From Liolophura sinensis (lineage: Eukaryota; Mollusca; Polyplacophora; Chitonida; Chitonidae): a DNA stretch of 64,000 bases. The stretch's first letter is position 1; each line of letters opens with the position of its first letter. This document shows positions 21,808-46,620 of the stretch, piece by piece. The stretch lies in NCBI RefSeq assembly GCF_032854445.1, contig NC_088306.1, forward strand, positions 19,749,764 to 19,813,763. The letters are read 5' to 3'. The notes beneath the pieces are model-generated. The model was not told where the DNA came from and ran no database searches. It saw nothing but the letters and a program-made list of their open reading frames with translations. Position numbers and translations under genes: made by a program.

Positions 21808-21988
21808 TTTAAATTGGTCAAAGGCATTGAGAAATAAACATAGCAGCTGGTCCAAAGATTAAGCTTGGGTTTGTGGAATGTTAAACATGAACGATTACTT
21901 CCCAGGGGCTCAAAATGTAAAACTGGAATTCAGGTCTATGAAAAGTGACAGCATACAAGAAAAAATATAATAACAAAATAAAACTACA

Positions 21989-23058: not shown

Positions 23059-26000
23059 TCATTTCAATAAATACACTAATTTATCATTCCGTAATGTACA
23101 GAAGACTTTGTTTATACACCAGATTTTCTCGAAAGATGGCCTGTCTAGTCGAAAAAAGTCAACATGAATACGGGTTTTAATTATTCCTTTGGCGGCCTTA
23201 ACAATAGCAACAGAATCCCTGTTTTTTTCCTGAAATATTATGTCGTTGCGTGCACACCAAATACTAAACTGAAGAACACATATGACATACACTATCACAG
23301 CTCTAACTTCCTGGTTAAAGGTGGAATTGAATACCTTGTAAATTAATGTTTCCGAGTCCATATTTGGTAGGTAGTTCGCAAACAAAACAAATATCCGGTT
23401 AAAGTCATTAAACACATCCTGAACGATTTTACATTGTACAAACAGATGTTGCCGAGTTTCAGACAGGGAGCAAAAAACACACAAGTCATCGGTGGCTACA
23501 TTTCTCCTAAGAAGTTTTTCCTTAACGGGCAAAATGTCATGAACCAACCTGTAACTGAAGTTGACCAAGTTGTGATCTAAGAATTGATGAAAAACAGTTT
23601 TCCATATTCTAACCCAGTCCAAATGCGGCATAGACACCATTGTTCTTGGACAATGTACTATTTTTGTTACAAAATATTCATAAATATACCTGCTTGAACA
23701 CATTGTTACAGGTTGCTGTACACCTGTGGTAAATTCTCTCCAGGCGCTCAAGGCCAGTCTATAAAAAGGTGGAATGTTTTCAGAATGTGGGACATTGGAA
23801 CGACAGAATTCACGACAAACATGTCTTAGGGGTAAACCCAACCAATAGATGGCAAAGTATTTCCATTCCGCTGTTGTTCCATGAATTAATTTTAAAACAT
23901 GCCGAGTAACAAGTGCTTTTATTTTACAATCTATATTATGTACGTTTAGACCTCCATTCCCTATTTTATTATGTACGACAACTCTCTTCAAACTTTCGGG
24001 CTTGTTATCCCACAAAAATCTGAACACAGTTTGGGAACATTGATTGACACATTTAGGTGGCAACAGAGTACACTGTGCAGAAAACCATAAAACAGCTAAA
24101 GCAACTGTATTAATTAAGACAGACCTCCCCCGTAGGGTCAAATATCTTCCATTCCATGCTGATACATGTTTCTTTACCTTACTTAAAACACGCTCAGAAT
24201 TGAGTTCTGTTTGATCTGGTCCAAAAAATACCCCACAAATCTTTGAATTTGTAGTGATGTTAAGCCCACCACTGTGCACGTTAGTTTCGTCCCAGCTACC
24301 AATGGGAAGAACTGTGCTTTTCAACAAGTTGAGTTTTGCTCCTGAGGCTTTTCCATAACTTTCTGCTAGTTTAATTACATGCGGAACAGAACTCTCTTCA
24401 GATAAAATTGCAGTCGTATCATCTGCAAATGCCGACACTCTTGTTTCCTTATTTGTGCCGGGTAACCGTACACCATTAATTTCGTCATTGTTTCTAATGG
24501 CGGCTATAAAGGGCTCTAAGGACAAAACATACAATAATGGTGACAAAGAACAACCCTGTCGGACACCTCGACTCAGTTTAAATTCTTCTGTTATGTGCCC
24601 GTTCACAATAACACTACTTGTAATGTCAGTATATAATAATTGCACCCACTTACAAAAGTCGGGTCCGAAGTTAAATTTCTCTAAACATTTGAACAAAAAT
24701 GACCAGTCTGCTCTGTCAAAAGCTTTCTCTTGGTCTAAGTTAAGAAAGCATCCTTTTAAATCTTTTTGTTCAACATAATCATATGTATTTCGTAATAAGT
24801 GAAGGTTGTCAAAAATACTTCGGCCTGGTATTCCACATGTCTGATTCTGAAGTACAATTGTATCGATCACATTTTTTAACCGATTGCACAAAGCTTTAGA
24901 AACAATCTTATAATCTACATTTAGTAAGCTAATTGGCCTCCAGTTTTTTATGCTTTCGGCATTGTCGGGGACCTTACATAATAGTGTGATTAACCCGGAA
25001 CGCTGTGAATTACTTAATCTACCCAAGTTAAAACAGTGATTAACTACATCCGTAAACACACCCGAAAACAGTGGCCAAAATTGTACATAAAACTCTGCTG
25101 GCAAACCGTCGCATCCCGGGGAACGGTTTTTAGACATATTTTTTACTGCAAAAAACAACTCCTGTTCAGTCAAAAGGCCTTCGCAGGCAGTTTTACAATC
25201 GTCATTTCACATCGGAAGCGATGACAAGAACTCATCTTGAATGGAGGAGTCAGTATCTTGTTCAGTATACAATTTCATATAATACGACCTTATACACTTA
25301 GTAATGCCTTCCTGAGATTCATGGGATATTGAAGAATCACTATGACAAGTAATACTTTTGATCATCTTCTTTCTGCCCCTACCAACTTCTCGTCTAATGA
25401 AATATTTGGTTGGTTTTTCTCCCTGATCAAAATGAACAGCTTTAGCACGGATAACCGCTCCCGCATGATTCGACTTATAAAGGGCATTTAGAGTCTTTTT
25501 CACATTGTCAATACGCTCACAGTTAATGATTGGACTAGATTTCAACGCATTTAATTCTTGTTCAAGTACCAACAAATCACGTTTTTTGTTCATAGATTTT
25601 TCCTTACAGTAACTCCGAATCCTATCTTTACATTCCCCTTTAAATGTCTCCCATCTGTCTATTAGATCTGCATGACCAGTTGTACAGACAGAGAAAATAT
25701 CATGGAAGACGGATTTAATATCATCAACAAGCTCCGTGTCATTTAACACAGAAGTATTACACTTCCAGTAGAACGGCCCCCATGAAATGACATCTTCAAA
25801 AGAGATATCAAAAAACAAACACGAATGATCAGAAAAAGACACATGTACAGCATCACACTGGGTTACATACTTAAACACAGCGTTAGGGATATAAAATCTA
25901 TCCAATCTACTGGCACACTGGCGCCTAGACCACGTGTAACAATTCTTATCCGGATGCAGTTTCCTAAAAATATCACAAATACCAAAATCTCTTTTCAAAT

Positions 26001-26544
26001 TATTAATTTCGTCCACTCCATCATTCCTTACATTAGTGGCACAGCCAGCTCTATCTAATTCAATGCTCTCAACACAATTAAAATCCCCACCCATAATAAC
26101 CAACTCACTGCCCTGCATCACATTATCTAGATTAGAAATAAACTCTTTTCTTTCCTTTGGATTATTAGGGGCATATACACAAACAAGGTTTAAAGCAGTG
26201 TTGTTGAGCTCAACCCTAAGGCTTATGTAGCGACCGTTAGGGCACCTCTGTATTTTCCGTATAAAGCAGTCTACCGTATACCTAATAATTATTCCCACCC
26301 CACAACTTCGATTTGACCCATACGCCCACCTTGCATCGCCTGGGATTTGCAAATATTTAGTGTCATTATAGTTTTCGAAGTGTGTTTCCTGTAAGAATAG
26401 TACATCAATTCCTTTATCGAAAACAAATTGCTTGACATGTTCTTGTTTAGACGGATCCCGTAAACCATTAATGTTTAAAGTCCCAAAACGAATATTATTT
26501 AAGCTCATTATACAAATAAGTAAAGGTAGAGCGTACATACCCAT
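23059..26544 (-). CDS. LINE copy A ORF2, endonuclease-reverse transcriptase, one in-frame stop
   Basis: Starts ATG at 26544 (MGMYA, also in copy D), 36 bases after ORF1. The APE-type endonuclease has LNINGLRD, FLQETHF, CVYAPNN, GGDFNCV and FSDHSC. RT has NWRPISLLN, CGIPGRSIFDNL, FLNLDQEKAFDRADW, RQGCSLSPLLYVLSLEPF and SAFADDTTAIL. The C-terminus has CVFCSLSETRQHLFVQC. Together 1161 codons, broken only by TGA at 25207-25209 in the linker between endonuclease and RT. No RNase H. Confidence 0.92.
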
Positions 26545-26580
26545 TGTGGTCAAATAAGAGAGTCCTAATTACGCTACAAA

Positions 26581-27888
26581 TCATTTGTCTCTTTTCATTC
26601 GCTGCCTCGCACGAGAAGCAAGCGATTTTCTTTTCCTGTATTCCAGAAGCATGGTGTCCCCCTCCTGAGATGGGGTCGGCGTCATACAGTCTGACGACTG
26701 ATCAGCATCAACACCATCATAATCAGTAGAATGGGAACTGGGCGGGATAGATGACGCTGCCTCTTCGGCTGTACTGCCATTGTCCAACTTAGCTCGCTTT
26801 TCCTCGACTGGGACTGGTGAACGCACGTCGGGAGCGTGCACGTCAGCCACGACCACATTCTTCACCCTTGGGACAGCTGATGACGTTTCATTATCACCAA
26901 CATCCACTTCTTCGGTGTTCTTAGTATTCTCCCGGACGTCCATCTCCTTATCAGACTCGCTGTCGTCGCTGACGTCTTCATCGGCGCTGTCGTCACCATT
27001 CCCGTCGATTTCGTCTTCGTTCTCCTCGCTGTCTTGAACCAGTTCCATAGCAGGTGCGTTGAATGGGTCATCATCGTCGCTGACGTCAACATCAATGTCA
27101 TCTTGTTTTACGGCGTCTTCCTTATTATACTGGCGCATAGTCGGTAGGTTTCCCTTAACTCGCGCCGCGTACGACATTGCTCTCGCACAACAGTCACTGA
27201 CCGTATGAAGCCCTGAGTCACACATTCGGCATGGATTTGTACAGTCCTTCTCTGTATGAGGATTCTCATGGGGGGAGAAACCGTCGCAGTTAGAACACCA
27301 CAGTGCTCTACACTCTGCCGCCTTGTGTGATTTTTGGCCACACTTCCGACATTCATAGGTTTGCCCGGGGTAGGTAAACATAACAATGTCACCACCGAAA
27401 TTAATAAAATTTGGTACATAACGAACTTTGTGACACCTAAATCTGTAAATCCGAATACCTGTCCGAACATGTGAGAGCTCCGGGTCTGAAAATCTGGGTT
27501 TCGTCACACCCAGGCATTCACCATAGGGTTTCAAAGCTGCCTCGATAGTGTCATCTGACATTTCATCCGGTGCCCAGTGGGCCGTCAGATTCAGGTAAAC
27601 TGACGACGCGGGCATAATGGACCACGTCGTTCCATTTATAACAACATTGGATTTACTCACTAGGGCATTATGCCCAGCCACTGTAGACACGCGGAGATAG
27701 AAGTGTTTCTTTAAATAATTCTTCTGAAAACTTATTAGCTCTGTCTTGATATTTAACACACTTGACAGAAAAGGAATAAAGTCCCTCTGGACAGCCGTAG
27801 AAAATGCCGGGCTGCTTCGTGTAGAGATTGACACAGACAAAGTTCTGCTTGGCCTGTTTACAGGCGAAAACGACACGGGCTTGGACAT
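26581..27888 (-). CDS. LINE copy A ORF1, CCHC zinc-knuckle nucleic-acid-binding protein
   Basis: 435 residues from ATG at 27888 (MSKPVSFSPVNRPSRTLSV; the same start occurs in copies C and D). The N-terminal half is basic/hydrophobic and conserved. It then has CRKCGQKSHKAAEC (CX2CX4HX4C), a middle Cys/His cluster, and a second knuckle CRMCDSGLHTVSDC. The last third is highly acidic, ending in a basic KRKSLASRARQRMKRDK. The role is presumed RNA binding in the retrotransposition particle. The frame is undamaged. Confidence 0.9.
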   Translation of the reverse strand: MSKPVSFSPVNRPSRTLSVSISTRSSPAFSTAVQRDFIPFLSSVLNIKTELISFQKNYLKKHFYLRVSTVAGHNALVSKSNVVINGTTWSIMPASSVYLNLTAHWAPDEMSDDTIEAALKPYGECLGVTKPRFSDPELSHVRTGIRIYRFRCHKVRYVPNFINFGGDIVMFTYPGQTYECRKCGQKSHKAAECRALWCSNCDGFSPHENPHTEKDCTNPCRMCDSGLHTVSDCCARAMSYAARVKGNLPTMRQYNKEDAVKQDDIDVDVSDDDDPFNAPAMELVQDSEENEDEIDGNGDDSADEDVSDDSESDKEMDVRENTKNTEEVDVGDNETSSAVPRVKNVVVADVHAPDVRSPVPVEEKRAKLDNGSTAEEAASSIPPSSHSTDYDGVDADQSSDCMTPTPSQEGDTMLLEYRKRKSLASRARQRMKRDK

Positions 27889-28204
27889 ACCTGATCCAAC
27901 GGGGCACACGCCCTTCACCAAACAGTAACCACTGGCCAAACTCAAGCTCTGTGGGCTCCCAGATCACCAAAAAATCAGTCTCAAAAACAAGCGTTGTTGT
28001 TGCACAAATGTGTAAACAGCAGAGAATAACCGACACGTCCGTTCACTTCGGCGTCTAGCACACTCCCCCCAAAAGGAGACATAACGAATGATAACCAGAG
28101 CAAAATAAGACAGACGCCAGACAATCTTTAGCCGAGATTTTATGATTCAAAAGTCAAACTTGGCTTTACGTTTATAACCAAAGCTCATAAATTGAGTTTT
28201 TATT

Positions 28205-28276
28205 GGGCTTGTCCGGGAATTGAACCCGGGACCTCTCGCACCCGAAGAGAGAATCATACCACTAGACCAACAAGCC
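28205..28276 (-). tRNA. tRNA-Pro(CGG), one anticodon-stem mismatch
   Basis: Full-length cloverleaf with anticodon CGG, but the stem reads CTCTC-TTCGGGT-GCGAG, leaving one T-C mismatch. The same mutation is in the copy at 30079, so it was inherited by tandem duplication. Confidence 0.88.
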
Positions 28277-28511
28277 TGCTCCGATTTACTGTGGCATAAC
28301 TTATGAAAACAAGTATGCTGATAAAACATTTTTGAAACCAGAGAGGTAGAAATTTATACGCTTGCTCATGTACGCTTTTGGTCTTCTTTGTGCTACATGT
28401 ATCTTGACAAATTGCATGAGATGTGTTAAAGAATACATCCGTTTGCCACTTTATAAAGTCATCATTATGGAAGTGAAATAGCCTTTTTAGGCAGAAGCTC
28501 ATTAAACTGGA

Positions 28512-28842
28512 GTGAGTGCTTGGGGTTTAACGTCGTAACAATTTTTCAGTCATATGACGACGAAGGAATCATTAGGGTGCATGTATGTATAATGTGCCTC
28601 CTTGTTGCAGGACGGATTTCCCCCGCTCTTTTGTTTAGTGCTGCTTCACTGAGACGACTTACCGAAGGCAAGTAAGGCGCCCCGCCCGAGCCATTATACT
28701 GATACGGGTCAACCAGTCGTTGCACTATCCCCTTCATGCTGAACGCCAAGCGAGGAAGTTACAACTTCCTCTTTTAAAGTCTTAGGTGTGAGTCGATCAA
28801 GGATTGATCCTGGATCTACCGGTCCCGAAGAGGACGCTCTAC
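28512..28842 (-). mobile_element. SINE in tRNA-Pro unit (copy 2)
   Basis: Nearly identical to the 21477 copy, at the same spacer position, flanked by TTAAACTGGA on both sides. Spread by tandem duplication of the unit rather than fresh insertion. Confidence 0.88.
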
Positions 28843-29030
28843 TTTAAACTGGACAAAGGCATTGAGAAATAAACATAGCAGCTGGTCCAAAGATTAAGCT
28901 TGGGTTTGTGGAATGTTAAACATGAACGATTACTTCCCAGGGGCTCAAAATGTAAAACTGGAATTCAGGTCTATGAAAAGTGACAGCATACCAGTCTTTG
29001 GAAAAAATATAATAACAAAATAAAACTACA

Positions 29031-29102
29031 GGGCTTGTCCGGGAATTGAACCCGGGACCTCTCGCACCCTAAGCGAGAATCATACCACTAGACCAACAAG
29101 CC
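29031..29102 (-). tRNA. tRNA-Pro(AGG)
   Basis: Perfect cloverleaf, anticodon AGG, discriminator C. The sense strand continues TGTAGTTTTATTTTG, giving a terminator within about 10 bases. Confidence 0.95.
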
Positions 29103-30078
29103 ATTGAATTCTCAAACTGCTGAAAGCGGACTGTTTCACTGCACAATTCGACAAAGTGCCTTGACAAATTAAATTGAAAACGTACATTTATACAGCAATA
29201 AGGAGAGAGAACATTAAATCAATGAAGTTATTATTTTTTTTCCTGAAAATGTCCAGTTTGGTCACGTGATCCATGCGCAAATGGTAGATTTGGGCCCAAG
29301 GTTTACTTCTGGGCTGAAGATTGCTAGGGCACTGATTGGAATATACTGTCATTGTAGGTTAGTAATACACTATAAATTCCTGTACCATTATTTTGCACCG
29401 AGTTAAAAAAAAAACCGAAACGTTTTGACCGGGGCGACTACAAGTTCTCCATGGACGTTTCACGCTGACAAAATGCTATGACATTGCTTCCAGTGTGCGA
29501 ATCCTGCTCTGGCTTTTTCGTCTAGGCTTTTAAATTCCGAGGTTTGTCAGAGAAATAAGTGTTTGCTCAAAATGTATAAACGAGTCAAAATTATGGGAAG
29601 CGTGTTTAAATCCAGCTTTCTCTTCTTCGTCTATATAATGCTACAGGTCAACAGACTTATCACTTACATGTACTCCAGTTAATTCGGTTTGCCTGATTGT
29701 ATTGTAATCATTCCCAATGAAATAATGAATACAACAAATACTGAAATCGAATAAGGTGCCATGTGTCAGAAAGCTGATTGAAAGTGTGCAGCATGGTACC
29801 TGTCATGTAAGCAAGTCATTATAAATCAAATAAAGAGTGTCTGATTACTCAGAGAGCAGTCTCAAACTTTGTAGTCTTTGCTACTTTAGCATGTTAAATC
29901 AAAGGGTTTCATCCCCCAGAGGGCTCTTACAGCTGACCAATGGCAGAGCTGAAAAGGAGACATAACAAATGATAACCACAGCAAAATAAAGCAGACGCCA
30001 GATAAACTTTAGCCGAGATTTTATGATTCAAAAGTGGCTTTACGTTTATAACCAAAGCTCATAAATTGAGTTTTTAAC

Positions 30079-30150
30079 GGGCTTGTCCGGGAATTGAACC
30101 CGGGACCTTTCGCACCCGAAGAGAGAATCATACCACTAGACCAACAAGCC
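30079..30150 (-). tRNA. tRNA-Pro(CGG), one anticodon-stem mismatch
   Basis: Same CTCTC anticodon-stem variant as 28205, plus a change in the variable region (GAAAGGTCC). Possibly weakly functional; no close terminator. Confidence 0.85.
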
Positions 30151-30384
30151 TGCTAAGATTTTCTGTGGCATAACTTATGAAAACAAGTATGCTGATAAAA
30201 CATTTTGAAACCAGAGAAGTAGAAATTTATACGCTTGCTCATGTACGCTTTTGGTCTTCTTTGTGCTGCATGTATCTTGACAAATTGCATGAGATGTGTT
30301 AAAGAATACATCCGTTTGCCACTTTATAAAGTCATCATTATGGAAGTGAAATAGCCTTTTTAGGCAGAAGCTCATTAAACTGGA

Positions 30385-30715
30385 GTGAGTGCTTGGGGTT
30401 TAACGTCGTAACAATTTTTCAGTCATATGACGACGAAGGAATCATTAGGGTGCATGTATGTGTAATGTGCCTCCTTGTTGCAGGACGGATTTCCACCGCT
30501 CTTTTGTTTAGTGCTGCTTCCCTGAGACGACTTACCGAAGGCAAGTAAGGCGCCCCGCCCGAGCCATTATACTGATACGGGTCAACCAGTCGTTGCACTA
30601 TCCCCTTCATGCTGAACGCCAAGCGAGGAAGTTACAACTTCCTCTTTTAAAGTCTTAGGTGTGAGTCGATCAAGGATTGATCCTGGATCTACCGGTCCCG
30701 AAGAGGACGCTCTAC
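30385..30715 (-). mobile_element. SINE in tRNA-Pro unit (copy 3)
   Basis: Same SINE, same site. Shares with copies 1 and 2 an 8-base-scale deletion (TAACGTCGTAACAATT) absent from the 41245 copy. Confidence 0.88.
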
Positions 30716-30903
30716 TTTAAACTGGACAAAGGCATTGAGAAATAAACATAGCAGCTGGTCCAAAGATTAAGCTTGGGTTTGTGGAATGTTAAACATGAAC
30801 GATTACTTCCCAAGGGCTCAAAATGTAAAACTGGAATTCAGGTCTATGAAAAGTGACAGCATACAAGTCTTTGGAAAAAATATAATAACAAGATAAAACT
30901 GCA

Positions 30904-30975
30904 GGGCTTGTCCGGGAATTGAACCCGGGACCTCTCGCACCCTAAGCGAGAATCATACCACTAGACCAACAAGCC
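30904..30975 (-). tRNA. tRNA-Pro(AGG)
   Basis: Perfect cloverleaf with anticodon AGG and a close downstream T run. Just upstream of its 5' end a deletion joins it to the next unit, so the next CGG gene begins only 168 bases away. Confidence 0.95.
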
Positions 30976-31142
30976 ATTGAGTTGTCAAGCTGACCTATGG
31001 CAGAGCTGAAAAGGAGACATAACAAATGATAACCAGAGCAAAATAAAGCAGACGCCAGATAAACTTTAGCCGAGATTTTATGATTCAAAAGTCAAACTTG
31101 GCTTTACGTTTATAACCAAAGCTTACTAATTGAGTTTTTATT

Positions 31143-31214
31143 GGGCTTGTCCGGGAATTGAACCCGGGACCTCTCGCACCCGAAGCGAGAATCATACAAC
31201 TAGACCAACAAGCC
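31143..31214 (-). tRNA. tRNA-Pro(CGG), D-loop variant
   Basis: Full pairing with anticodon CGG. The D loop reads AGTTGTAT instead of AGTGGTAT, changing conserved G18, which also lies in the A box. Function is doubtful. Confidence 0.85.
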
Positions 31215-31712
31215 TGCTCCGATTTTCTGTGGCATAACTTATGAAAACAAGTATGCCGATAAAACGTTTTGAAACCAGAGAAGTAGAAATTTATACGCTT
31301 GCTCATGTACGCTATAGGTCTTCTTTGTGCTACATGTATCTTGACAAATTGCATGAGATGTGTTAAAGAATACATCCGTTTGCCACATTATAAAGTCATC
31401 ATTATGGAAGTGAAATAGCCTTTTTAGGCAGAAGCTCTTTAAACTGGAATGAATGAATGAATGATTATGGCTTAACGCCACATCGGCAATATTTCAGCCA
31501 TATCGTGGCGAGAACAAGGTGAAAACGCGAGACGGTTAAGGTTTTCGATATGATAATATGAACATCAAAAGTAAAACAAAAAGTACAGACATGTTTAAAA
31601 TCGCATAAAAGAAAAAATAAGAGTTAAAACTCGAAAACCAGGGTTATATATTACATGTATAAATCTATATGTATATAACTGTTTATCTATAGATATTTAT
31701 GACAACTAAAAT

Positions 31713-34700
31713 TTATATTTTATGATATAGGCCAATGGCCTTCAAATAATTTATGACAACATCGCCAGCGATGCTGTCAAATAAATCATATATAGAGTTG
31801 ACCGTGTAGAACCTTTGCCGAACATGGGCAAAGTCCACACAGTCAACCAGAATATGTTTGATGCCATATTGAGCATCACATCCAACACACTCGGGAGCAC
31901 TGCTCCCATCCAAGATGAAATTGTGTGTTAGACGAGAATGTCCAATACGGCATCTCGTTAAAACGACTTGGTCTCTACGAGACATATCAAGTGTACATGA
32001 ATTATAGCCAATGACAGGATGAATGACATGCAGTTTATTGTAAACCTGCAGATCCCATTCACCCTGCCAAAGCCGACGAATATATTTAACAATATTAGAC
32101 TTAAAATCATTATATGGTATTTTAACTTGCGACAAAGGTTTAGTAAGGGCAGCTTTTGCCTCCCTGTCTACGACTGTGTTTTCATGGATACCAACATGAC
32201 TTGGTATCCAGCAGAATAGGATATCTTTACATCTTTTAATTAGCTTTCGGTGTATGGCTAATATTTCGAGGATCAACGGATTTTTAAATTTATTATTCTG
32301 TATTGCCAAAAGGCTGGAAAGCGAGTCGCTGCATATCACAGCCCTCTGAGCATGCCCAGAAGAGACATATGATGAGGCCAGGAGTATAGCCCTGGCCTCT
32401 GCAGAAAAGATTGAAGACGAGGATGGAAGACGAAGAGAAGCAACTCGCTGCTCTAAGACACCTGCAGCTGCAACCCTATCCCCATCCTTTGACCCATCAG
32501 TATATAAAAATTTATAATCCGAATATTTAGCCTTAATTTCAACAAAACCTTGCTGAATTATAAGAGGATTTGTATTTGATTTATTATATTTTCGTAGATC
32601 AAATATCAATTTAGGTTGTGGAAAAAGCCATGGTGGGGACTCCGGAAAAGAAACCGGAGCTATGTCTCCAAGTTTAATGTTGGCTTCCACAATATGGTCC
32701 CTAACACGAACACCGAACGAAGGGATCTTGTTAGAACATTTAGTATATTTGTCTACATATAATGGATTGAAAACACAGTCGTAGGCAGGGTTTGTTGGAT
32801 GAGCTTTAAGCTTTGTAGCATATTGAAGGCTCAGTTTTACACGCCTGTGATGTAAAGAAGGCTCGTTAGCCTCTACGTATAAACTTTCTACTGGTGAGGT
32901 TCTAACCAAGGCTGAGCCTCAAACCTTGGTGATGGACCGGATCCAACATTTTAGTATACGACTTCCTAGCGGAACCGTAAATGATGGATCCATAATCTAT
33001 TTTAGACCTCACCAGAGAACGATATAAATTAAGTAAAACTGATCGGTCAGCACCCCAATCGGTGCTAGACACGACCTTAATTATATCGAGAGCCTTTATA
33101 CATTTAGCTTTAAGCATTTTAATATGAGGTATAAATGATAATTTTTTATCGAATATAACCCCTAAAAATTTAATTTCTCCAATAATTTTCACTGGTTTAC
33201 CACAAAAATTAAGTTCAGGGTCAAGATGGAATTTCCGTTGATTACAAAAATGCATACCGACGGTTTTAGGTTTTGAAAATCTAAAACAATTGGCAACTGC
33301 CCATTTCTCGATCTTATTGAGACAAAGCTGCAGTTGCCGCTCGATGTTATTCATATTTTTAGCACGGTAGCATATCAGGAAATCATCTACATATAAAAAA
33401 CCCTCTGTGCCAGATGTCAATGTTTTAGACAAACTATTAATTTTTATGCCAAATAGTGTTGGTGAAAGGATACTGCCCTGGGGCACACCCATTTCCTGCT
33501 CATAAGAGTCAGAAAGAGTGGACCCCACCCTTACCTTAAACTGACGATCGGATAAAAATTCTGATATAAATATTGGTAATCGGCCTTTAAGACCCATATC
33601 CGCAAGGTCTTTTAAAATACCATATTTCCATGTGGTGTCGTAAGCCTTCTCAAGGTCAAAAAATATGGGCACCACATGTTCGTTATTAATAAATCCATCT
33701 CGTATAAAGGTTTCGAAGCGAACAAGGTGATCCATAGTGGATCTACCTTGACGAAAACCACATTGTATATTAGAAAGTAACTTGTTGGCTTCAAGAAACC
33801 AAACAAGTCTATGATTTATCATCCGTTCCATAGTTTTACAGACACAGCTGGTAAGAGCTATGGGACGGTAATTATTTGGGTCATTATGATCCTTACCCGG
33901 TTTGGGAACCGGGATAATACACGACGGAACTAAATGACCCCATGACGGTGGAAAATTACCAGTTATCCAAATATCATTAAGCAAGTCCAAGAGTGTCTCC
34001 AGTGGCTCAGGTGGTAAATGGTTCAAAAACTTATAATATACGTTATCAGGCCCACAAGCAGTATCGTGGGCCTTTTTAGTGCAGTTTTAAGTTCATCGAT
34101 ATTAAAAGGACAATTATAATCTTCTAAATTTTTAGAAGAAAAGGACAATTGAATTTTCTCCTTCTGGTTTTTAATGTGTTGAAATTCTGAAGTATAATTT
34201 TCAGAAGAAGATTTGTTGGAAATTGTCTTAGCTAGTTTATTTGCAATATTAGGTGGAGAAGTTAAGATACTATCTCCATCTTTTAAATGCTGGACTTTGG
34301 CTTTATTATTTTTACCCTTAAGTTTCTGAACCATGTTCCAGACCTTACGCATGGGTGTTTTTGAGGTAATGCCCGAAACAAAGTTCCGCCAACAAGATCG
34401 TCTCTTGGACTTGATTAATCGACGAGCTTTAGCTCTGAAACTACGAACCTGGTTTAAATTATTATCAGTGGGACAATGATTAAATCTGCGTTCAGCCTTT
34501 TTGCGGTCCTTTATGGCTTTGCGACAGTCATTGTCGTACCAGGGTTTACTTTTGGATTTGAGATTTGTCAAGGTCTTAGGTATAGTTCTATCGGCAGCTC
34601 GTAATACAAGCTCATTAAATTTTAATATCGGATCATCTGCTGCATTGAGAGTCTCTGGAGTGATATCAGCCTCAGAGAACATCTCAAATGCGATCCAGTC

Positions 34701-35406
34701 TGCTTGATCGAATTTCCACCTAGCTACACGTTCTAAAGAATTAGAAGTGATATGTTCTAGGATTATAGGAAAATGGTCACTACCACAAAGATCGTCATGC
34801 ACCTTCCACGAAAAATTCGGGAGAAGTGATGGGTCTGTGATAGTGAGATCGATAGCAGAATAAGTGCCATTACCCGGATGTAAATAGGTATTAGAACCAT
34901 CATTGAAATAACACAGTTCCTCCTTCGATAAGGAGTCTTCGACTATCTTGCCCTTATTATTTATGTTATTACTGCCCCATACAGGGTTATGGGAATTAAA
35001 ATCACCCAGTATTATAAACGGTTTTGGCAATTGTTAGATTATGTAACTGTAAAGCTGACAAAGAAATGTTAGGAGGAATATACACTGAACATAATGTGTT
35101 TGTTTCAGACAATGAAACACGAACGGCCACAGCCTGAAGCTCTGTATCCAGAGCAACAGGGCTGTGAATAACATTGTCATTGACGAAGATGGAGGAGCCG
35201 CCTGCAGCTCGATCTTCTTCATTCGAGTACCTACTGTATAATGAGTAATTTTTAAGAGTTATTTTGTCTTTGTCAGATGTCTTCAGGTGAGTTTCCTGAA
35301 GACACAGGGCAATAGGATTTAATAATTGAACGAGCTGTGTTATTTCAATAAAATTTACCTTAAGGCCTCGACAATTCCATTGTATAATTTTGTCATATAT
35401 CGCCAT
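31713..35406 (-). pseudogene. I-like LINE ORF2: endonuclease, RT and RNase H, frameshifted
   Basis: Endonuclease: IIQWNCRGLKVN, LCLQETHLK, ILGDFNSHNPVWG and GSDHFPIILE. RT: IPVPKPGKD, NYRPIALTSC, GFRQGRSTMDHL, FFDLEKAYDTTW, GVPQGSILSPTLF and FLYVDDFL. RNase H: LYTDGSKDGDRVAAAGV, SAEARAI, CSDSLSS and WIPSHVGIHEN. Frame breaks occur near 35030, 34060 and 32905, otherwise nearly complete. Confidence 0.9.
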
Positions 35407-36765
35407 TATGGAGGGAGACGTATAGGAGATTTATGTTTGGACCGAGGACAACCCTTTCGTGGAGATCGGCTGGAAGATCTCCCTGATGCGGGTGATATAT
35501 CCATCACCTCCGCATCTGATGTTGAAGGACCAACGTCCTCCAACGAACCAAACTTATTGAAAGTTTGTATAGGATCCCTAGTGGCCTTAGAGGGACGCTC
35601 TGTGGGGCCACCAGGTTTATTAGTTATTTTATTATTATTTTGAGATTGACTTTTGGACTTATTTTTGTCATTTTTAGGGCAATTGAGCTCAGCTGGTTTA
35701 CCAGGGTGTTCTATACTATTTACTGTTTTTATTTGTTCTTTTGAAGGAGTTTGAGTTGAGGAAGAACTAAATGAAGGTTGAGATGCAAGTTGCACAGAAA
35801 CATAACTAGGTTTGTCGTTTCCAATGGGCCAAGTCCAAGAGGTTTGAGTAGCAACAGTTGCTACTCGCTTGACCACATTGGCAAACGAAGTCGGTAGAGA
35901 AGTATTAGGAAGTGAGGCTAATTTCCGGGCGTCCTGATAGGAGATATTGTTTTTAATTTTCAAGTTGATAATTTGCTTTTCCTTAACGAAAAGCGGACAG
36001 TCCCTTGAGGAGGCCATGTGATCTCCACTGCATGTTGCAACACTTAACTGTGTTGCTGCAGTCGAAACCATCATGCCCTTCACTGCCGCATCTGAAGCAA
36101 ATGAGTTTGTTCTTACATTGTCCCTTGCCATGACCAGATCGTTGGGAATTAAAACAACGTGTAGGATTGGGGATATATAAATCCACATTAACCCTATACC
36201 GGCCAACGTAGATATGAGACGAAAGGGAGGTAGTGTTAAAGGTAAGCAGGTATGTATTAAGTTTAAAGAGGTTACCAGATTTCTTCGTAACGAAGCGTTT
36301 CACTCTGGTAACACCCTGTGAATTTAGTTCTTGGCAGATTTCTTCCTCAGTCAGGTCAGCTATATCACCATCCCTGTCACGAATGATTCCCTGACAGCTG
36401 TTCAGGGAATCGTGAAGGGATGTGAAAACAGATATGTCAGATATTTTATTTAATTTAAGTAAATTTTTTGACTGTTGTTGCCGGAAACATTCAATGAGAA
36501 TGTCTCTGGATCTAAGTTTTTTGACGTTTTTTAAAGTTCCAGCTGTGCCCTGGAGAGCCCTTTGCAAAAGAAACGGGTGAATTTTTGAAGCCGGCTTTTG
36601 TTCACTCTTAGTTGAGAAAACAATGAAAGCCGGCCAACTGCTCTGTTCGTTATCCAGTGAGTCAGACAACTTCCTCTTTTTATCAGCACTTAAAGACAAA
36701 GTCGGCTGAGAGGAAGATCTATTAGATATATTCGAAATATTTGAAGTAGGTTTTAAGGTAGACAT
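35406..36765 (-). pseudogene. I-like LINE ORF1 (gag-like), one frameshift
   Basis: The N-terminal frame 36765-35983 and C-terminal frame 36206-35406 overlap. The frame changes at about 36060-36030, inside the zinc-knuckle region (CFRCGSEGHDGFDC, then CSGDHMASSRDC). The following VKEKQIINLKIKNNISYQDA segment with ARKL is typical of Jockey-group gag proteins. Confidence 0.85.
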
Positions 36766-37555
36766 GACATATAGATATAAATTTCACCCCATATGTTCCC
36801 CACCCACCACGGAGTGCCAACAAGGGCGATGCCTGAACCTGGAATACCCAGCAGGAAAGACACCAAGGATTCCATATGAGGTATACTCGAACAGATTGAT
36901 TTATACCAAAGGTTAAATTCAATCTACTCGATTGACCCATGAGCCACCGCCTCAAAATGTAGTCCCGCAAACGATATTTCAGAAAAAAGATTTGTTCGCT
37001 AAATGATGTGCTGTTATTGAAGCAATTGGGATCACGCAGAGGCAAGACATGACCAAGCCGATTGATCGTACCGGGCCCATCCGACCTCCCGTCTCTCTCC
37101 AAGTAAGGGCCAAAGTGACGTGTTGGGCGTGAGGATCTCGCAAGATCAACACACTCTCAGCCACCGGGATCCCGTCCTCGTAGATTACGGGTCGCAACCC
37201 ACGGCAAACAGGCCGCTCACCGGTTGCCTGTCACACAACCGAGAAGATGTGAGCGTATTCTACTCACCGGGCTCACACAGGAGAGCTCTAGGTTAGTCGA
37301 CTTTTACGACAAGCTTGCCTAGAGGGCTGAGGTCCTATTCTTATCACCCCGGAAACCCCACAGGGGCTTTAAACTGGACAAAGGCATTGAGAAATAAACA
37401 TAGCAGCTGGTCCAAAGATTAAGCTTGGGTTTGTGGAATGTTAAACATGAACGATTACTTTCTAGGGGCTCAAAATGTAAAACTGGAATTCAGGTCTATG
37501 AAAAGTGACAGCACACCAGTTTTTGGGAAAAGTATAATAACAAAATAAAACTACA

Positions 37556-37627
37556 GGGCTTGTCCGGGAATTGAACCCGGGACCTCTCGCACCCTAAGCG
37601 AGAATCATACCACTAGACCAACAAGCC
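37556..37627 (-). tRNA. tRNA-Pro(AGG)
   Basis: Perfect cloverleaf, anticodon AGG, close T-run terminator. It lies just upstream of the composite element, in a unit whose CGG gene was deleted. Confidence 0.95.
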
Positions 37628-37850
37628 ATTGAGTAGACAGCTGAAAGAGGACTGTTTCACTGCACAATTCGACAAAGTGCCTTGACAAATTAAACTGAAA
37701 ACGTACATTTTATACAGCAATAAGGAGGGAGAACATCAAATCAATGAAGTTATTATTTTTATTCCTGAAAATGTCCAGATTGGTCACGTGATCCATGCGC
37801 AAATGGTGTAAAAGAATACATCCGTTTGCCACTTTATAAAGTCATCATTA

Positions 37851-38297
37851 GGACACAGACCCCCATTACAACTTGCGTTTTTCAGTAGGGACGATTGTAG
37901 TTCTGTGTTGTAAAGTCTTTTTTTGCTGCCAGCCTGCCGTTTTTGGTGTACAAGTGCATGCTTGGTATGAAAATGATGGAAATTGTCTAAGCTTTGGGCA
38001 GGTATGAGTTTTAATGGTGAAAGTTTGAAATTCTGGGCGAGAGGACACAAGGAGACAGGTGGTGATGATGAGGCTGCGAGTGACGTCCCCTTGGCGTTGC
38101 TAAGCACCCCTCCCAGCTGCCGGCATGTAAAGGTCCAGATTTTTCCAGTCAACCTATGTCAAGATTTTTACAGCTTCTTTCTCTCAGGCTGGGCCAGGTA
38201 TGCACCAAAGCTTATTGGCCTCGGAATGTTTGGGACTGAGCTACAGCGCTAAACGTTAACATTGTCGCTTATGGAAAACTAATGGGGGTCTGTGGCC
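37851..38297. repeat. Left terminal repeat of the composite element
   Basis: 447 bp with 18-bp inverted tips, nearly identical to 40744-41196 in direct orientation. Resembles a non-autonomous DNA element (MITE-like) or, less likely, an LTR. Confidence 0.85.
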
Positions 38298-40743
38298 TGA
38301 TCTGTCCACTTGTGCCAAAACATGTAATATGTCACTGTGTGCTCAGATTTGGCAACAGCCTGATAATATTTGGTGGGTACATCTGCGATGTGGTTTGCAT
38401 TGACATGGAACTTGATTGAGCAGTTTTAAAGCTTTTTAATTCTATATTTTCCCCACATATCCATTTTGTCTAAAAATCGGCTAAAGCGCTCTGTGGTCAA
38501 GGGTAGTACAGGAGTATAAACAGACTGGAACAAACACAGACAATGTTTCATTGTTCCTGGTTTTTAAAATGTCTCTTTTGGGGCTGACATTTGATAAATA
38601 ATGCAAAATTTGAGTGCTGCGAGTGAAATTGGAGTATGTGGCTGATAGATAGGGTGGTGTGATTAAGGATGGTCAATAAGGCCTTGCATCACATATAAGG
38701 GCCCAGCCTCACACAGCTGGATAAAAACACATCAGCAGATTAATTTACTTGGCTAGAGTAGTAGAGAGGGCCAGTGTGCATTTAATTTACAAACCAAGTC
38801 AGGTTCCTCCCATGTGTGCCACCACACACTAGGTAAATGTGCTTCAAATCATCCTGCAGGTCACAAAACATGAAAAACAGGCATCTCTGCTGGAACACTG
38901 TCTGCTGTTTTGGGCATAGACTTGAAGTGGACAAGGTAAATTTTCCTCTTTAAACTTAAAAATAAACCACTGTAGGCATGTAGTTTTCATTGCATGTGTA
39001 TATTCATTCCTCTGACAAGTTACATGTGCACTCACACAGTATGTGTGGCGTTGGAACAAAAATGATCAATTTCAAGTTTCTAGCATACATGTGAGTGTGA
39101 TCTGTTGGAATATTGCCCTTGTGAAAATGAGTCTGTGCCCCACCAGGTGTCTGTTTTTCCACCAGAACATAGTACGCTGTTCCTGCGACATCTCAAGGAG
39201 TTTTTGTTTTAGTATGTGGCCCAGTGTGGCATCCACCTCCCTGGGCAACTGGGATTTTTTTTATGTTTCCAATGTCCTCACACACAAGTTAGAAATTAGA
39301 CAGCTACATATGTCTTTCACATCCTAGTTTAATACCTATTGAGCTTTTGTCTTGGTTTCCCTCTTTAGATCTTGTCTCCCAAACATGGCGTCAGTGAACT
39401 TTGCCTGGTTTATGCATATATTGAACTGGGATCTACCTAGGTGAGTGGGGTCTGCTAGCCGTTCAGCTTCCTCAAAGGCCTGACCATTCGGATGCAGTCT
39501 TCGACTCCTTTGGCCGACCTAGAATCCCCGTCATTGGTCCGGTACTACACCATGACACATACCCCTCCGGCCCCCCCCCACCCCCCCAACCGGGGAAACG
39601 TCACAGGTTTCTCATATATGTACGGACAGTTTGAATGTCCATTCCTCATGCCCACCCAGCAACACCCAGTGTGGAACCTGATTACGGATGTAATTTCTCA
39701 CTGATTATTTGAGGATTTCTGTGTTGTTACAGGTTAAAAAGTATAGCTTTTCCCCTCTTCTTGGGTCCCTTCAACATGTCTTGGGAGGGTTGCCTTGCTG
39801 ACTGTCTGAATGACCAATGTGCATGTACTGTGTGGCTTTATTTTTGTAAGTGGCAAATTCATATTTCTCCCCTCTACTTATCTCTTGTAGATGCCAGTGT
39901 CACACTTTGGTGTTTGTTATGTGGAAAGTACTAATTTAGTCTGAGGCAACAACACAGGTGGTGGGATTCTTTTGCACTGTGAGTTGAGGTAAGCCAGCCA
40001 ACCAATGGCAGCCATGGGGGAGACGGGAAAGGGGGGTAGTGTGTGTGTGGGGGGGAGTGGGTGATCTTTTAAAGGGTTTTATCATGTGAATCACTATGTA
40101 AAAGGGATACTAGTCTTTTCTTTAGCCCTATCCATGGAAACTCTGCCTATGAGCATTTCTATATCAATTTGGGTGCATACGTTTACTTTGATGGTGATCA
40201 AAATGTACTTTTCTGGAATTTTGAAACTCCGCTTTGCTACCCACCTGTATCACTTTAAGTCAAATTTTGCACAAAGTTGCTAAAAGGTATGTCCTATATT
40301 TGCTAAGTGAATTGTCAGATAAATTACCTGTCTTTTGATATATATTTTGACACTTTTGGCTTTTAAGTATTTTCTTAACACTGCTGTAAACAAGAAAATC
40401 TACTTGAAAATCCATAATTTTCTAAATGTTTGTCAATGGAAAATGTAAAATACTTTGTCATTGGAATTTTTTCATTTTTCTTGCAGATATACATACCAGC
40501 TTTCCAAAACATTTGACCTGGTTAAGATATTTTGAAGGGTATGTGCACTACAGAGCTTTGAACTTGGTGCTTGAGGACGGACAAACAGACACATTTCCAA
40601 GATAGGGGTACCCCAAGTTAAATTCCTCCTACTGAAAAGTTTTTGCATGTATCAAGCTGTAACTTTATGTGTGAGGTTTAGAGGTAGTAAGCATTATGTG
40701 GTGCAAAAATGATTGATTTTAAAAAAAGTTGGCTGGTGTGATA
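38298..40743. other. Unique interior of the composite element
   Basis: About 2.4 kb of non-repetitive sequence, less AT-rich than the array spacers, with a C-run at 39572-39588 and G-runs near 40050. Apart from the small spliced ORF, no coding or RNA gene is supported. It may be captured genomic DNA. Confidence 0.5.
39385..40535 (+). CDS. Possible two-exon small ORF inside the composite element
   Basis: ATG at 39385 in a strong Kozak context (AAACATGGCG). Exon 1 (39385-39440) ends at donor CCTAG/GTGAGT; exon 2 starts after TTTTTCTTGCAG at 40487 and reads to TGA at 40533-40535. The 34-residue product begins MASVNFAWFMHILNWDLP and ends TYQLSKTFDLVKIF. No family is recognised. It could be a captured gene fragment or chance. 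Confidence 0.25.
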
Positions 40744-41196
40744 GGACACAGACCCCCATTACAACTTGCGTTTTTCAGTAGTGACGATTGTAGTTCTGTG
40801 TATTTTAGGGTGTAAAGTCTTTTTTTGCTGCCAGCCTGCCGTTTTTAGTGTACAAGTGCATGCTTGGTATGAAAATGATGGAAATTGTCTAAGCTTTGGG
40901 CAGGTATGAGTTTTAATGGTGAAAGTTTGAAATTCTGGGCGAGAGGACACAAGGAGACAGGTGGTGATGAGACTGCGAGTGACGTCCCCTTGGCGTTGCT
41001 AGGCACCCCTCCCAGCTGCCGGCATGTAAAGGTCCAGATTTTGACGGTCAACCTATGTCAAGATTTTTACAGCTTCTTTCTCTCAGGCTGGGCCAGGTAT
41101 GCACCAAAGCTTATTGGCCTCGGAATGTTTGGGACTGAGCTACAGCGCTAAACGTTAACATTGTCGCTTATGGAAAACTAATGGGGGTCTGTGGCC
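40744..41196. repeat. Right terminal repeat of the composite element
   Basis: 453 bp; differs from the left repeat by a few substitutions, a short insertion (TATTTTAGGG near 40801) and small deletions. Confidence 0.85.
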
Positions 41197-41244
41197 ATTA
41201 TGGAAGTGAAATAGCCTTTTTAAGCAGAAGCTCTTTAAACTGGA

Positions 41245-41579
41245 GTGAGTGCTTGGGGTTTAACGCCGTACTCAACAATTTTCCAGTCATATGACGGCGA
41301 AGGAATTATTAGGGTGCAAGTACGTGTAATGTGCCTCCTTGTTGCAGGACGGATTTCCACCGCTCTTTTATTTGGTGCTGCTTCACTGAGACGACTTACC
41401 GAAGGCAAGTAAGCCGCACCGCCCGAGCCACTATACTGTTACGGGTCAACCAGTCGTTGCACTATCCCCTTCATGCTGAACGCCAAGCGAGGAAGTTACA
41501 ACTTCCTCTTTTAAAGTCTTAGGTGTGACTCGATCAAGGATTGATCCTGGATCTACCGGTCCCGAAGCGGACGCTCTAC
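41245..41579 (-). mobile_element. SINE in tRNA-Pro unit (copy 4, least altered)
   Basis: Retains the fuller 3' end TAACGCCGTACTCAACAATT and a left flank CTCTTTAAACTGGA identical to the empty site, with TTTAAACTGGA on the right (41580-41590). Closest to the original insertion. Confidence 0.9.
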
Positions 41580-41768
41580 TTTAAACTGGACAAAGGCATT
41601 GAGAAATAAACATAGCAGCTGGTCCAAAGATTAAGCTTGGGTTTGTGGAATGTTAAACATGAACGATTACTTCCCAAGGGCTCAAAATGTAAAACTGGAA
41701 TTCAGGTCTATGAAAAGTAACAGCATACCAGTTTTTGGGAAAAGTATAATAACAAAAAAAAAACTACA

Positions 41769-41840
41769 GGGCTTGTCCGGGAATTGAACCCGGGACCTCT
41801 CGCACCCTAAGCGAGAATCATACCACTAGACCAACAAGCC
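41769..41840 (-). tRNA. tRNA-Pro(AGG)
   Basis: Perfect cloverleaf, anticodon AGG, with the sense strand running into TGTAGTTTTTTT immediately downstream as terminator. Confidence 0.95.
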
Positions 41841-42821
41841 ATTGATTTCGCAAGCTGCTGAAAGCGGACTGTTTCACTGCACAATTCGACAAAGTGCCGT
41901 GACAAATTAAATTGAAAACGTACATTTTATACCGCAATAAGAAGGGAGAATATTAAATCAAGGAAGTTATTATTTTTTTTCCTGAAAATGTCCAGTTTGG
42001 TCACGTGATCCATGCCCAACTGGTAGATTTGGATCCAAGGTTTACTTCTGGGCTGAAGATTGCTAGGGTGCTGATTGGAATATACTGTCATTGTCGCTTA
42101 GTAATACACTATAAATTCCTGTACCATTATTTTGCACCCAGTTAAAATAAACCGAAACGTTTTGACCGGGGCGACTACAAGTTCTCCATGGACGTTTCAC
42201 GCTGACAAAATGCTATGACATTGCTTCCAGTGTGCGAATCCTGCTCTGGCTTTTTCGTCTAGGCTTTTAAATTCCGAGGTTTGTCGGAGAAATAAGTGTT
42301 TGCTCAAAATGTGTAAACAAGTCATAATTATGGGAAGCGTGTTTAAATCCAGCTTTCTTTTCTCCGTCTATGTACAGCTACAAGTCAACAGACTTATCAC
42401 TTACATGTACTCCAGGCAATTCGATTTGCCCGAATGTACGGCAGTCACTCCAATGAAATAATGAATACAACAAATACTGAAATAGAATAAGGTGCCATGT
42501 GTCAGAAAGCTGATTGAAAGTGTGCAGCTAGGTACCTGTCATGTAAGCAAGTCATTATAAATCAAATAAAGAGTGTCTGATTACTCAGAGAGCAGTTTCA
42601 AACTTTGTAGTCTTTGCTACTTTAGCATGTTAAATGAAAGGGTTTCATCCCCCAGAGGGCTCTTACAGCTGACCAGTGGCAGAGCTGAAAAGGAGACACA
42701 ACGAATGATAACCAGAGCAAAATAAGACAGACGCAAGACAAACTTTAGCAGAGATTTTATGATTCAAAAGTCAAACATGGCTTTACGTTTATAACCAAAG
42801 CTCATAAATTGAGTTTTTAAC

Positions 42822-42893
42822 GGGCTTGTCCGGGAATTGAACCCTGGAACTCTCGCATCCGAAGCGAGAATCATACCACTAGACCAACAAGGA
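42822..42893 (-). pseudogene. tRNA-Pro(CGG), degenerate
   Basis: Anticodon loop TTCGGAT with CGG, but the 5' acceptor strand starts CCTTGTTGG and no longer pairs with ACAAGCC; T-stem and variable-loop changes are present as well. Confidence 0.82.
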
Positions 42894-43080
42894 TGCTCCG
42901 ATTTTCTTTGACATAACTTATGAAAACAAGTATGCCGATAAAACGTTTTGAAACCAGAGAGGTAGGAATTTATACGCTTGCTCATGTACGCTATAGGTCT
43001 TCTTTGTGCTACATGTATCTTGACAAATTGCATGAGATGTGTAAAAGAATACAACAGTATAACAACAAAATAAAACTACA

Positions 43081-43152
43081 GGGCTTGTCCGGGAATTAAA
43101 CCCGGGACCTCTCGCACCCTAAGCGAGAATCATACCACTAGACCAACAATCT
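43081..43152 (-). pseudogene. tRNA-Pro(AGG), degenerate acceptor
   Basis: Body of the tRNA is intact with anticodon AGG, but the 5' acceptor strand is replaced (AGATTGTTGG) and the T loop has TTTAATT. Probably inactive. Confidence 0.82.
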
Positions 43153-43399
43153 AGATGTTTTCAATCTGCTGAAAGCGGATTGCTTCACTGCACAATTCGA
43201 AAAAGTGCCGTGACAAATTAAATTGAAAACGTACATTTCATACAGCAATAAGGAGGGAGAACATTAAATCAATGAAGTTATTATTTTTTCCTGAAAATGT
43301 CCAGTTTGGTCATGTGATCCATGCTCAAATGGTAGATTTGGATCCAAGGTTTACTTCTGGGCACAGTAAAGTAATTAAACCAGAGTGTTGTTGTTGGCT

Positions 43400-44917
43400 C
43401 ATTTTGTTTTTGCGCAAAGCATGAATTAACAATTTTTCTGAACACCGAACTAATAAAGTCCCAATATTGCGCATAAAACTCGGCTGGAAGACCATCCACA
43501 ACAGGAGTACGATATTTATGCATATCTTTCATAGCCATAAAGAGTTCAGTGCTGGTTATTAAACCTTCACATAATTTTTAACATTTATCAGACAACTTGG
43601 GTAACTGGCACAAAAGTTCTTCTTGACAGTCTACATCAGTTTCTTGTTCAGAATACAATTCTTTGTAACATGCTGTTATAAAACTAGCAATGTCCCTTTG
43701 ATCACCATGCAATATACCCACAGAGTCATGACATTTCAGTTTAGTAATCGTTTTCTTTCGCCCCCTTCCTACTTCGCGCTTAAAAACAGAGCGGGTGGGT
43801 TTTTCACCCTGATCAAAATGAATAGCTTTAGCTCTGATAACCGTACCAGCGTGAGCTGCTTTATGCAGTGCATTAATAGCCTGTTTCACATTTTCAAGTG
43901 GAACATAGTTATTGACCGGGTCAACCCTAAGTTGATAAAGGACTCTTTCGAGATCATTTAATTGAGTTCGTTTTAATGTGGGAACTTCTTTACAATGTTT
44001 CCGTATTATCAATTTACATGATTCTTTAAACTCATCCCATAAATCAATCAACCTGTTATTATCACAATTACTAAAATATCTACCAAACTCGTTTTGAATA
44101 CTGTTCACAAGTTCGTTATTACCTAGGACAGACACATTGCATTTCCAATAAAATGGCCCCCAGGTAATAACACTGTCAAAACAAACATCATTATAAACAC
44201 AGCTGTGATTAGAAAAAGCGGTTGGTATGATATCTGCCGATATAGCATAGGGCACTGTTGAAGAGGGCATACGAAATCTGTCTAAACGACGTGCAACCTG
44301 ACTCCTCGACCAAGAGTAACAAAGTTTGTCAGGATTTACTTCACGAAATATATCACATATACCAAACTCAAGGCATTCATTTCATTAGCACTATCAGTTC
44401 TCGAGTTGAGATTGCCCCCATTCTTATCTAAAATATTGTTTTCCACAAAATTAAAATCATCCCCTAAAATAATCAAATCATTCCTATTCAACAATGTGTC
44501 AAGACTAGCAATAAATTCTCTTCTTTCGGTAGGACCATTAGGCGCATACAAACAAAGTAAGTTAATAGCAGTATTATTTAAATCAGGCCTAACTGATATA
44601 AACCGACCCTGTGGGCACCTTGTAACTTTCCTTACTCTACAGTCAACTGAATAACGAACAATAATGCCCACACCACGGCTTTGACTTGTACCAAATGACC
44701 ACGTACACTCTACGGGGATATTTAGGCTCTTAGTTTCATTATAGTTCTGAAAGTGTGTCTCTTGTAAAAATAAAACATCAATATCGTTGTCAAATACAAA
44801 CTGTTTCAGTTGAACCTGTTTGTTACTATCTCTTAGCCCTTTAACACTCATTGTAGCAAATCTAATTGAACTGTGAACAGACATTGTGATAATAACTAGA
44901 ACAGCGTACATACCCAT
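43400..44917 (-). pseudogene. LINE copy D ORF2 remnant (endonuclease to start of RT)
   Basis: Starts MGMYAVLVIITMSVHSS at 44917. Endonuclease motifs FLQETHF, CLYAPNGP and GDDFNFV are followed by a frameshift near 44340. The linker (44270-43578) then leads to the RT beginning DGLPAEFYAQYW at about 43490. The catalytic RT core is gone. Confidence 0.85.
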
Positions 44918-45012
44918 TTTAGAGCTAATTGGGTGTTATGCAACACAGTCGTTTGAGTTCTAATTAACATCCCGGCGACGCCTACCGCCGGGATGCTTTT
45001 CTCTGTTTTCTT

Positions 45013-46388: not shown

Positions 46389-46620
46389 ACCTCTGGCTGC
46401 TGCCCACTTCCTAAATGTCCTCACAACAAAATATCACTCCGTAGATTCCGGATTCGAACAAAAAATCAACAAAACTACAACGTTGTTGTTGCACACCGAC
46501 GGCTTACACGGCAGCTGAGAAAACACGTCTTCACTCCACCAAGGTCAACACCTTTCCCTATGATTCAAACGTAAACTTGGCTTTAGGTTATAATGAAAGC
46601 TCATAAATTGAGCTTTTAAT

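Follow-up and report, generated by a model that had tools for sequence, protein, structure and literature searches.

UnaSINE and UnaL2 typify the pairs in which a short interspersed element (SINE) shares its 3' end with a long interspersed element (LINE). Here we describe a SINE and a LINE of the I group that landed on exactly the same base of a spacer between tRNA-Pro genes in the mollusc Liolophura sinensis. Both lie in a stretch of 64,000 bp of contig NC_088306.1 (assembly GCF_032854445.1; C12:19.75-19.81 Mb in our genome search), hereafter called the window. Several LINEs related to L1 were found in the same tRNA gene arrays and are considered at the end.

Among the closest described systems, pairs of the UnaSINE/UnaL2 type are named in PMC3747384. 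Nimb and Ingi are among the I-group clades for which PMC4640811 lists RNase H, and they are the I clades that PMC10294476 names for molluscs, beside an Unknown clade from O. sinensis. Independent insertions with overlapping target duplications at one locus were described for the CanSINE hotspots of cats (PMC4084570). The locus of L. sinensis resembles them in having received independent insertions, but in cats a SINE coincides with a SINE, while here a SINE coincides with a LINE, to the exact base and in paralogous units. As to tRNA genes, the planarian LINEs LIN15_SM and LIN25_SM are specific for the genes themselves (PMC4640811), and the downstream placement of Dictyostelium TRE3 was called found only in dictyostelids in a 2018 review (PMC5911963).

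A tRNA-Pro spacer site in three states

The window holds two arrays, one of 13 tRNA-Pro genes followed by one of mostly tRNA-His genes (eight His and one read as Gln), all on the minus strand. The spacer between the tRNA-Pro(AGG) and tRNA-Pro(CGG) genes carries the site CTTTAAACTGGA/CAAAGG, where the stroke marks the nick. The features that bear on this site are the following:

16660..46692, minus strand, tRNA-Pro array of 13 genes (CGG and AGG)
16954..16965, plus strand, empty site with one mismatch (CTTTAAAGTGGA)
46817..46828, plus strand, empty site
21477..21806, minus strand, 5'-truncated SINE copy of 330 bp, right duplication with three changed letters
28512..28841, minus strand, SINE copy of 330 bp with the same truncation
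30385..30714, minus strand, SINE copy of 330 bp with the same truncation
41245..41578, minus strand, SINE copy of 334 bp with the same truncation, 94% identical to the copy at 30385
31437..31448, plus strand, left target-site duplication of the LINE, CTTTAAACTGGA, with the first-strand nick after its last A
31449..37366, minus strand, I-group LINE copy of 5918 bp with broken frames and an (ATGA)4 tail at its left end
37367..37378, plus strand, right target-site duplication of the LINE

An earlier sequence-only reading of the window had proposed that one site occurs here empty, SINE-filled and LINE-filled. This was confirmed. The right flanks of all seven units can be aligned base by base across the site, and the units show all three states. 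Two of the seven tRNA-Pro spacer copies are empty (units 16954 and 46817), four hold the 5'-truncated SINE (21465, 28500, 30373 and 41233) and one holds the 5.9-kb LINE (31437). The left flanks can also be aligned base by base, but in units 41233 and 46817 their homology ends about 36-37 bp from the site. The nick is 178 bp from the AGG gene, on its 3' side, and 223-224 bp from the CGG gene, on its 5' side, in units 28500, 30373 and 31437; the two distances are 171 and 217 bp in unit 21465. Matches to CTTTAAACTGGA with at most one mismatch numbered 11, versus 0.59 expected by chance. The right flank of the site unit has seven copies in the genome (609 Mb in 632 contigs searched; 7 of 7 candidates scored), all of them inside the window.

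The SINE and the LINE have in common the first-strand nick (TGGA/CAAAGG), the second nick and the 12-bp duplication, save for a few changed letters in some SINE units. Duplications are perfect around the LINE and around the SINE at 41245. The left duplication of the remaining three SINE units reads CATTAAACTGGA (one changed letter), and the right duplication at 21807 has three changed letters (GTTTAAATTGGT).

Targets and 3' ends of the two elements

The LINE at 31449-37366 is present as a single copy within the window. Its domains, searched separately in each broken frame, and its 3' hairpin are arranged as follows:

31465..31515, minus strand, 3' hairpin region with the stem CGCCAC/GTGGCG
31713..32909, minus strand, frame with RNase H (PF00075, 3.5e-07)
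32902..34026, minus strand, frame with reverse transcriptase (PF00078, 3.2e-31)
34023..35406, minus strand, apurinic-type endonuclease over two frames (PF14529, 7.3e-18; PF03372, 1.9e-06; TRAS1 endonuclease, 0.0033)
35983..36765, minus strand, frame resembling open reading frame 1, with a CCHC-type motif seen by eye and no Pfam match

Endonuclease, reverse transcriptase and RNase H in one element is the arrangement of I-group LINEs (I factor, Nimb, Ingi). Compared with proteins of known structure, the LINE matched the reverse transcriptases of L1, R2 and more distant elements (best 2.8e-11) and the TRAS1 endonuclease (0.0033). Its short tandem-repeat tail is a further likeness, to the I element as described in PMC3747384. 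The 5' end of the LINE gave nothing in Rfam up to E 5, its reverse transcriptase had no match among viral contigs, the tail patterns were found in none of these contigs, and a literature search on the tail letters returned nothing related. Eight bacterial contigs with tail patterns were judged chance matches because long similarity to the SINE or LINE was absent around them.

The targets of the LINE were surveyed genome-wide in the best 40 of 2062 candidates scored (45 matches; 39 regions fetched besides ten loci, with neighbouring copies included). Over the aligned piece the sampled copies have 80.9-100% identity with the one in the window, which places old copies outside the sample, and two junctions were counted as distinct on the basis of the final 20 letters of the left flank alone. 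This gave 50 distinct 3' junctions including that of the window, the only one at CTTTAAACTGGA. The left flank ends in GA at 43 of them (AGA 18, GGA 11, TGA 8, CGA 6), while the background of GA in the window is 5.4-6.0% (about 5.7%). Because the tail of the LINE itself ends in GA, the far flank was also examined. It is present at 25 junctions, 17 of which have a duplication of 11-16 bp, and all 17 carry GA in both copies; GA therefore belongs to the target and not to the tail. No tRNA gene was seen in the 39 other fetched LINE regions, that is, targeting of tRNA genes by the I-group LINE was not seen there. It follows from the survey that the LINE is dispersed and loosely selective. A simple GA primer rule has thereby been measured for an I-group LINE; a report of such a rule in I-group LINEs was not met in the literature passages available to us.

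Self-nesting of the LINE is strong: at 20 of the 50 junctions the left flank lies inside another copy (in one case, the second row of locus L031, inside the tail only), and many of these junctions are on small contigs (C118 and C33, for example). Loci with self-nested junctions include L022, L024, L031, L033, L040, L043 and L048-L050.

For the SINE the best 40 of 1758 candidates were scored, three of them in the tRNA-Pro array, and 20 others were fetched. The nick preference is looser than in the LINE, with GA at 11 of these 20 dispersed left flanks. The best flanking repeat is 12-16 bp long in 16 of the 20, although those of L066 and L077 are unconvincing as duplications; L058 and L059 have identical flanks and look like one duplicated insertion. 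Elsewhere in the window, SINEs with related tails occur at CCCACAATTTGA, ACATAYATAAAA, CATTATAAWATT and GAGTGAAAA, none of which resembles the array site, and for those at 14518, 48414 and 7603 no clear duplication was found.

The stronger proposal of the sequence-only reading, namely that a site-specific I-group LINE targets TTTAAACTGGA and the SINE follows it, would account for the presence of both elements on the same base of a multicopy array. However, 49 of the 50 LINE junctions and all 20 junctions of the fetched dispersed SINEs are at other sequences, and the site unit occurs only seven times in the genome, far below the candidate copy numbers of either element. Sequence-specific LINEs of the R1/R2 type have most copies at one target; here one junction of 50 is at the site. 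Specificity of the LINE for TTTAAACTGGA was rejected for the copies examined, and we regard this explanation as extremely unlikely. Random targets elsewhere in the genome, the outcome that the same reading had named as fatal to its proposal, are what the best-scoring copies revealed.

The resemblance of the 3' ends, also pointed out earlier, was borne out: 36 of 56 and 39 of 59 aligned columns are identical between SINE and LINE. Read as RNA, both elements fold within their final 50-70 nt into a hairpin whose loop is similar in the two, and a short tandem tail follows it. In an alignment of 11 tails (10 distinct), all from the window and with a twelfth (7603) excluded, 83% of the stem cells are paired versus 15-53% in slid versions, and four of the six pairs are changed on both sides. 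These paired changes represent few events, since most of them trace to the LINE and to single SINE rows. The hairpin was equalled in paired percentage by 12 of 500 shuffles, in double-changed pairs by 2 of 500 and in further pair types by 42 of 500. The tail at 14518 is misaligned in the stem, and folding of the tail at 7603 into the shared stem was not obtained.

Common 3' sequence and structure, the same nick preference and duplications of about 12 bp in both elements make a common I-group machinery of SINE and LINE well supported as far as sequence comparison goes. The pair is like the UnaSINE/UnaL2 type in its shared 3' hairpin, its type of tail and the dispersion of both members, but differs in the tail units, GTGA in the SINE and ATGA in the LINE, and therefore the direct partner of the SINE may be a sister LINE with a GTGA tail. 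The earlier suggestion that a SINE using LINE machinery would hit the same base thus stands as regards the base itself, the 12-bp stagger, the related 3' ends, the hairpin and the nick rule, and falls as regards a TTTAAACTGGA-like target. In trypanosomes the long and short elements ingi and RIME reportedly share a target motif; in contrast, the rule common to the pair described here is only GA at the nick.

A probable history of two insertions on one base

It is highly probable, in our view, that the three states arose from one insertion of the SINE and one independent insertion of the LINE, both elements belonging to a dispersed system of I-group retrotransposons. The endonuclease of the LINE would nick host DNA just after GA, with little else required. 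The 3'-terminal GA would then prime reverse transcription on the tandem RNA tail, where each unit offers the complementary UC (AUUC repeats in the LINE, ACUC repeats in the SINE), and the second strand would be cut about 12 bp away. The shared 3' hairpin would let the SINE RNA use I-group LINE protein, be it that of the window LINE or of a sister LINE. In the presumed order of events, the SINE, 5'-truncated, landed once at TGGA/CAAAGG in one tRNA-Pro unit and gave four copies by multiplication of the unit, and the LINE landed independently on the same permissive GA site of a different, unoccupied unit. If so, the locus is a natural experiment on target choice, with independent SINE and LINE insertions that have a common nick, stagger and 3' hairpin. 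It would also mean that two elements can occupy one base without site specificity, which calls for caution when the presence or absence of a SINE is used as a homoplasy-free marker.

The single origin of the array SINEs is indicated by their 5' end. All four end at the identical base, internal to the longer genomic SINE, and for this reason they are most simply one insertion multiplied with the unit, which makes the three states the result of two insertion events, not five. The three copies at 21477, 28512 and 30385 are 99% identical. The genomic SINE has a tRNA-like start in its 5' head in 17 of the 20 fetched copies.

Several observations weigh against this explanation. The SINE at 41245 shows none of the eight columns that separate the other three from the dispersed majority (four of the eight being a single 4-bp deletion), and no derived letters are common to it and the other three. 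Among the junctions with a right flank, no duplication was seen at 8 of 25 in the LINE; GA is missing at 7 of 50 LINE and 9 of 20 SINE junctions, and all these junctions come from the best 40 of 2062 LINE candidates and from 20 of the best 40 of 1758 SINE candidates. Finally, one 1531-bp unit holds 170 GA nick sites on its two strands, and a target model built from the 49 other LINE junctions predicts that the array site takes only 0.14% of the insertion weight in a unit, at rank 130 of 3062. In the model that this one replaced, built from the four in-window SINEs, the site ranked 651 of 3078. The nick rule alone therefore does not predict this base.

The first of these points raises the question of whether the SINE at 41245 came from an event of its own, a third insertion into this base. 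Such ends are not rare, as 3 of the 20 dispersed SINE copies terminate 2-9 nt from the truncation point of the array. The copy at 41245 has, however, the very truncation base of the other three. It differs from them by 15-16 substitutions in 330, against 7-9 in 279-286 for the flanks, an excess that is not significant (Fisher test, p 0.14-0.41). We consider a third insertion unlikely.

The truncated SINEs ending close to the array truncation point (L066, L067 and L073) suggest a stop of reverse transcription in the tRNA-like head.

As to the coincidence itself, a given SINE/LINE pair would share a base in 0.14% of cases under the 49-junction model, or in about 0.6% with equal weight on each of the 170 GA sites; for two arbitrary insertions in one unit the 49-junction model gives a coincidence in 1.3% of cases. 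One same-base pair is unusual, yet it is within what a reader scanning for oddities would pick out, and the coincidence may reflect chance or a mild local hotspot. A real hotspot, in which local DNA structure or open chromatin between tRNA genes exposes the GA, would be compatible with the two-insertion explanation. The low chance per pair speaks for it, and so does the crowding of other LINEs in the tRNA arrays. On the other hand, no more than two independent events are established, each of the five L1-like LINEs has a position other than this site, and the array, found once in the genome, has no replicate. We treat the hotspot as conceivable but doubtful.

Replacement of an earlier SINE by the LINE through recombination or gene conversion, which the sequence-only reading had listed among the possible objections to its own account, deserves attention because the LINE unit agrees with neighbouring SINE units in the distal letters of its left flank, and units therefore exchange sequence. 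Nevertheless, both ends coincide to the base, though the 5' ends of LINE and SINE have no sequence in common, and the LINE is flanked by two perfect duplications. In its left flank the LINE unit lacks, at columns 139, 270 and 279, the letters that the three compared SINE units have in common. Positive evidence of replacement was found neither in the flank comparison nor in the unit-flank trees, where inner branches were supported in 0 of 4 cases in each tree. Replacement is thus very improbable.

L1-like LINEs beside the tRNA genes

Five other LINEs, L1-like poly(A) elements related to one another, interrupt the arrays, all on the minus strand as are the tRNA genes:

17112..20631, minus strand, L1-like LINE (I1)
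22887..28070, minus strand, L1-like poly(A) LINE with a 12-bp duplication, AAAAGGAGACAT, 122 bp 3' of a tRNA-Pro gene (I2)
43363..46558, minus strand, end piece of an L1-like LINE (I6)
47816..about 52551, minus strand, L1-like LINE (I7)
62223..64000, minus strand, 3' portion of a LINE with 99% identity to I2, located in the tRNA-His array some 101 bp downstream of the expected place of the next tRNA-His gene (I8)

Apart from I2 and I8, which are 99% alike, these elements are 63-71% alike over long stretches. Compared with human L1 ORF2p, I2 matched in the reverse transcriptase (6e-50) and the endonuclease (5e-29), and it also has a zf-RVT domain. Matches of the I-type tail profile in the window with E below 0.05 were all on the plus strand (13 of 13), which puts these elements, too, on the minus strand and, with the five L1-like LINEs, gives a strand bias across the whole window.

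The junctions 3' of a tRNA gene are at 34-37 bp in I1, 122 bp in I2, 71-80 bp in I7 and 101 bp in I8, the gene positions for I7 and I8 being deduced from neighbouring units; 5' junctions are at 62 bp in I6 and 94 bp in I7. These placements agree with the 40-150 bp 3' of tRNA genes, in the same orientation, that would be expected of a TRE3-like LINE, with I1 just under this range. The right end of I1 adjoins a broken tRNA copy, and a duplication was not seen by eye. Three copies of the I2 family, I8 included, are located in the tRNA-His array with their tail 5231-5301 bp before the next tRNA-His match, a spacing that a 5.2-kb element placed about 50-120 bp downstream of tRNA-His would give.

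In the genome survey of the I2 family the best 40 of 91 candidates were scored, adjacent tRNA genes being known only for the four copies at C12:19.77-19.84 Mb. Of the 40 scored I2 copies, 29 were clustered; they form 11 clusters, and within 10 of these all copies are on one strand. The corresponding figures are 5 of 40 copies for the SINE and 16 of 40 rows entered for the I-group LINE. The last count covers 40 of 45 rows. Of the five omitted, three are on C118 and one each on C33 and C11; all are weaker or adjacent pieces beside counted rows, so that the clustering of the LINE is, if anything, understated.

We favour the view that this animal I2 family inserts about 35-120 bp downstream of tRNA-Pro and tRNA-His genes, every observed copy pointing the same way as the tRNA, with putative guidance by the RNA polymerase III machinery and not by sequence. 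If true, this would be a case of convergence with Dictyostelium TRE3, which the I2 family resembles in its placement as given in the 2018 review, and the SINE and the I-group LINE would be bystanders in the same exposed spacer. The host here is an animal, however, and the likeness covers the I2 family, not the SINE/LINE pair. No animal case of a LINE downstream of tRNA genes was among the literature matches listed (titles and abstract openings). The family would make tRNA-guided targeting by a LINE testable in an animal.

The 5' end of one of these LINEs, I7 (47816-52551), lies in a tRNA-His unit (the 94-bp junction) and its 3' end in a tRNA-Pro unit, as if recombination between two LINE copies had joined the arrays. 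A further repeat is located at 37845-41195, where two pieces of about 450 bp (37849-38297 and 40742-41196) are 96% identical and have, by eye, the ends GGMCACAGACCCCCATTA. They may be a pair of small elements with inverted repeats or the terminal repeats of a single element.

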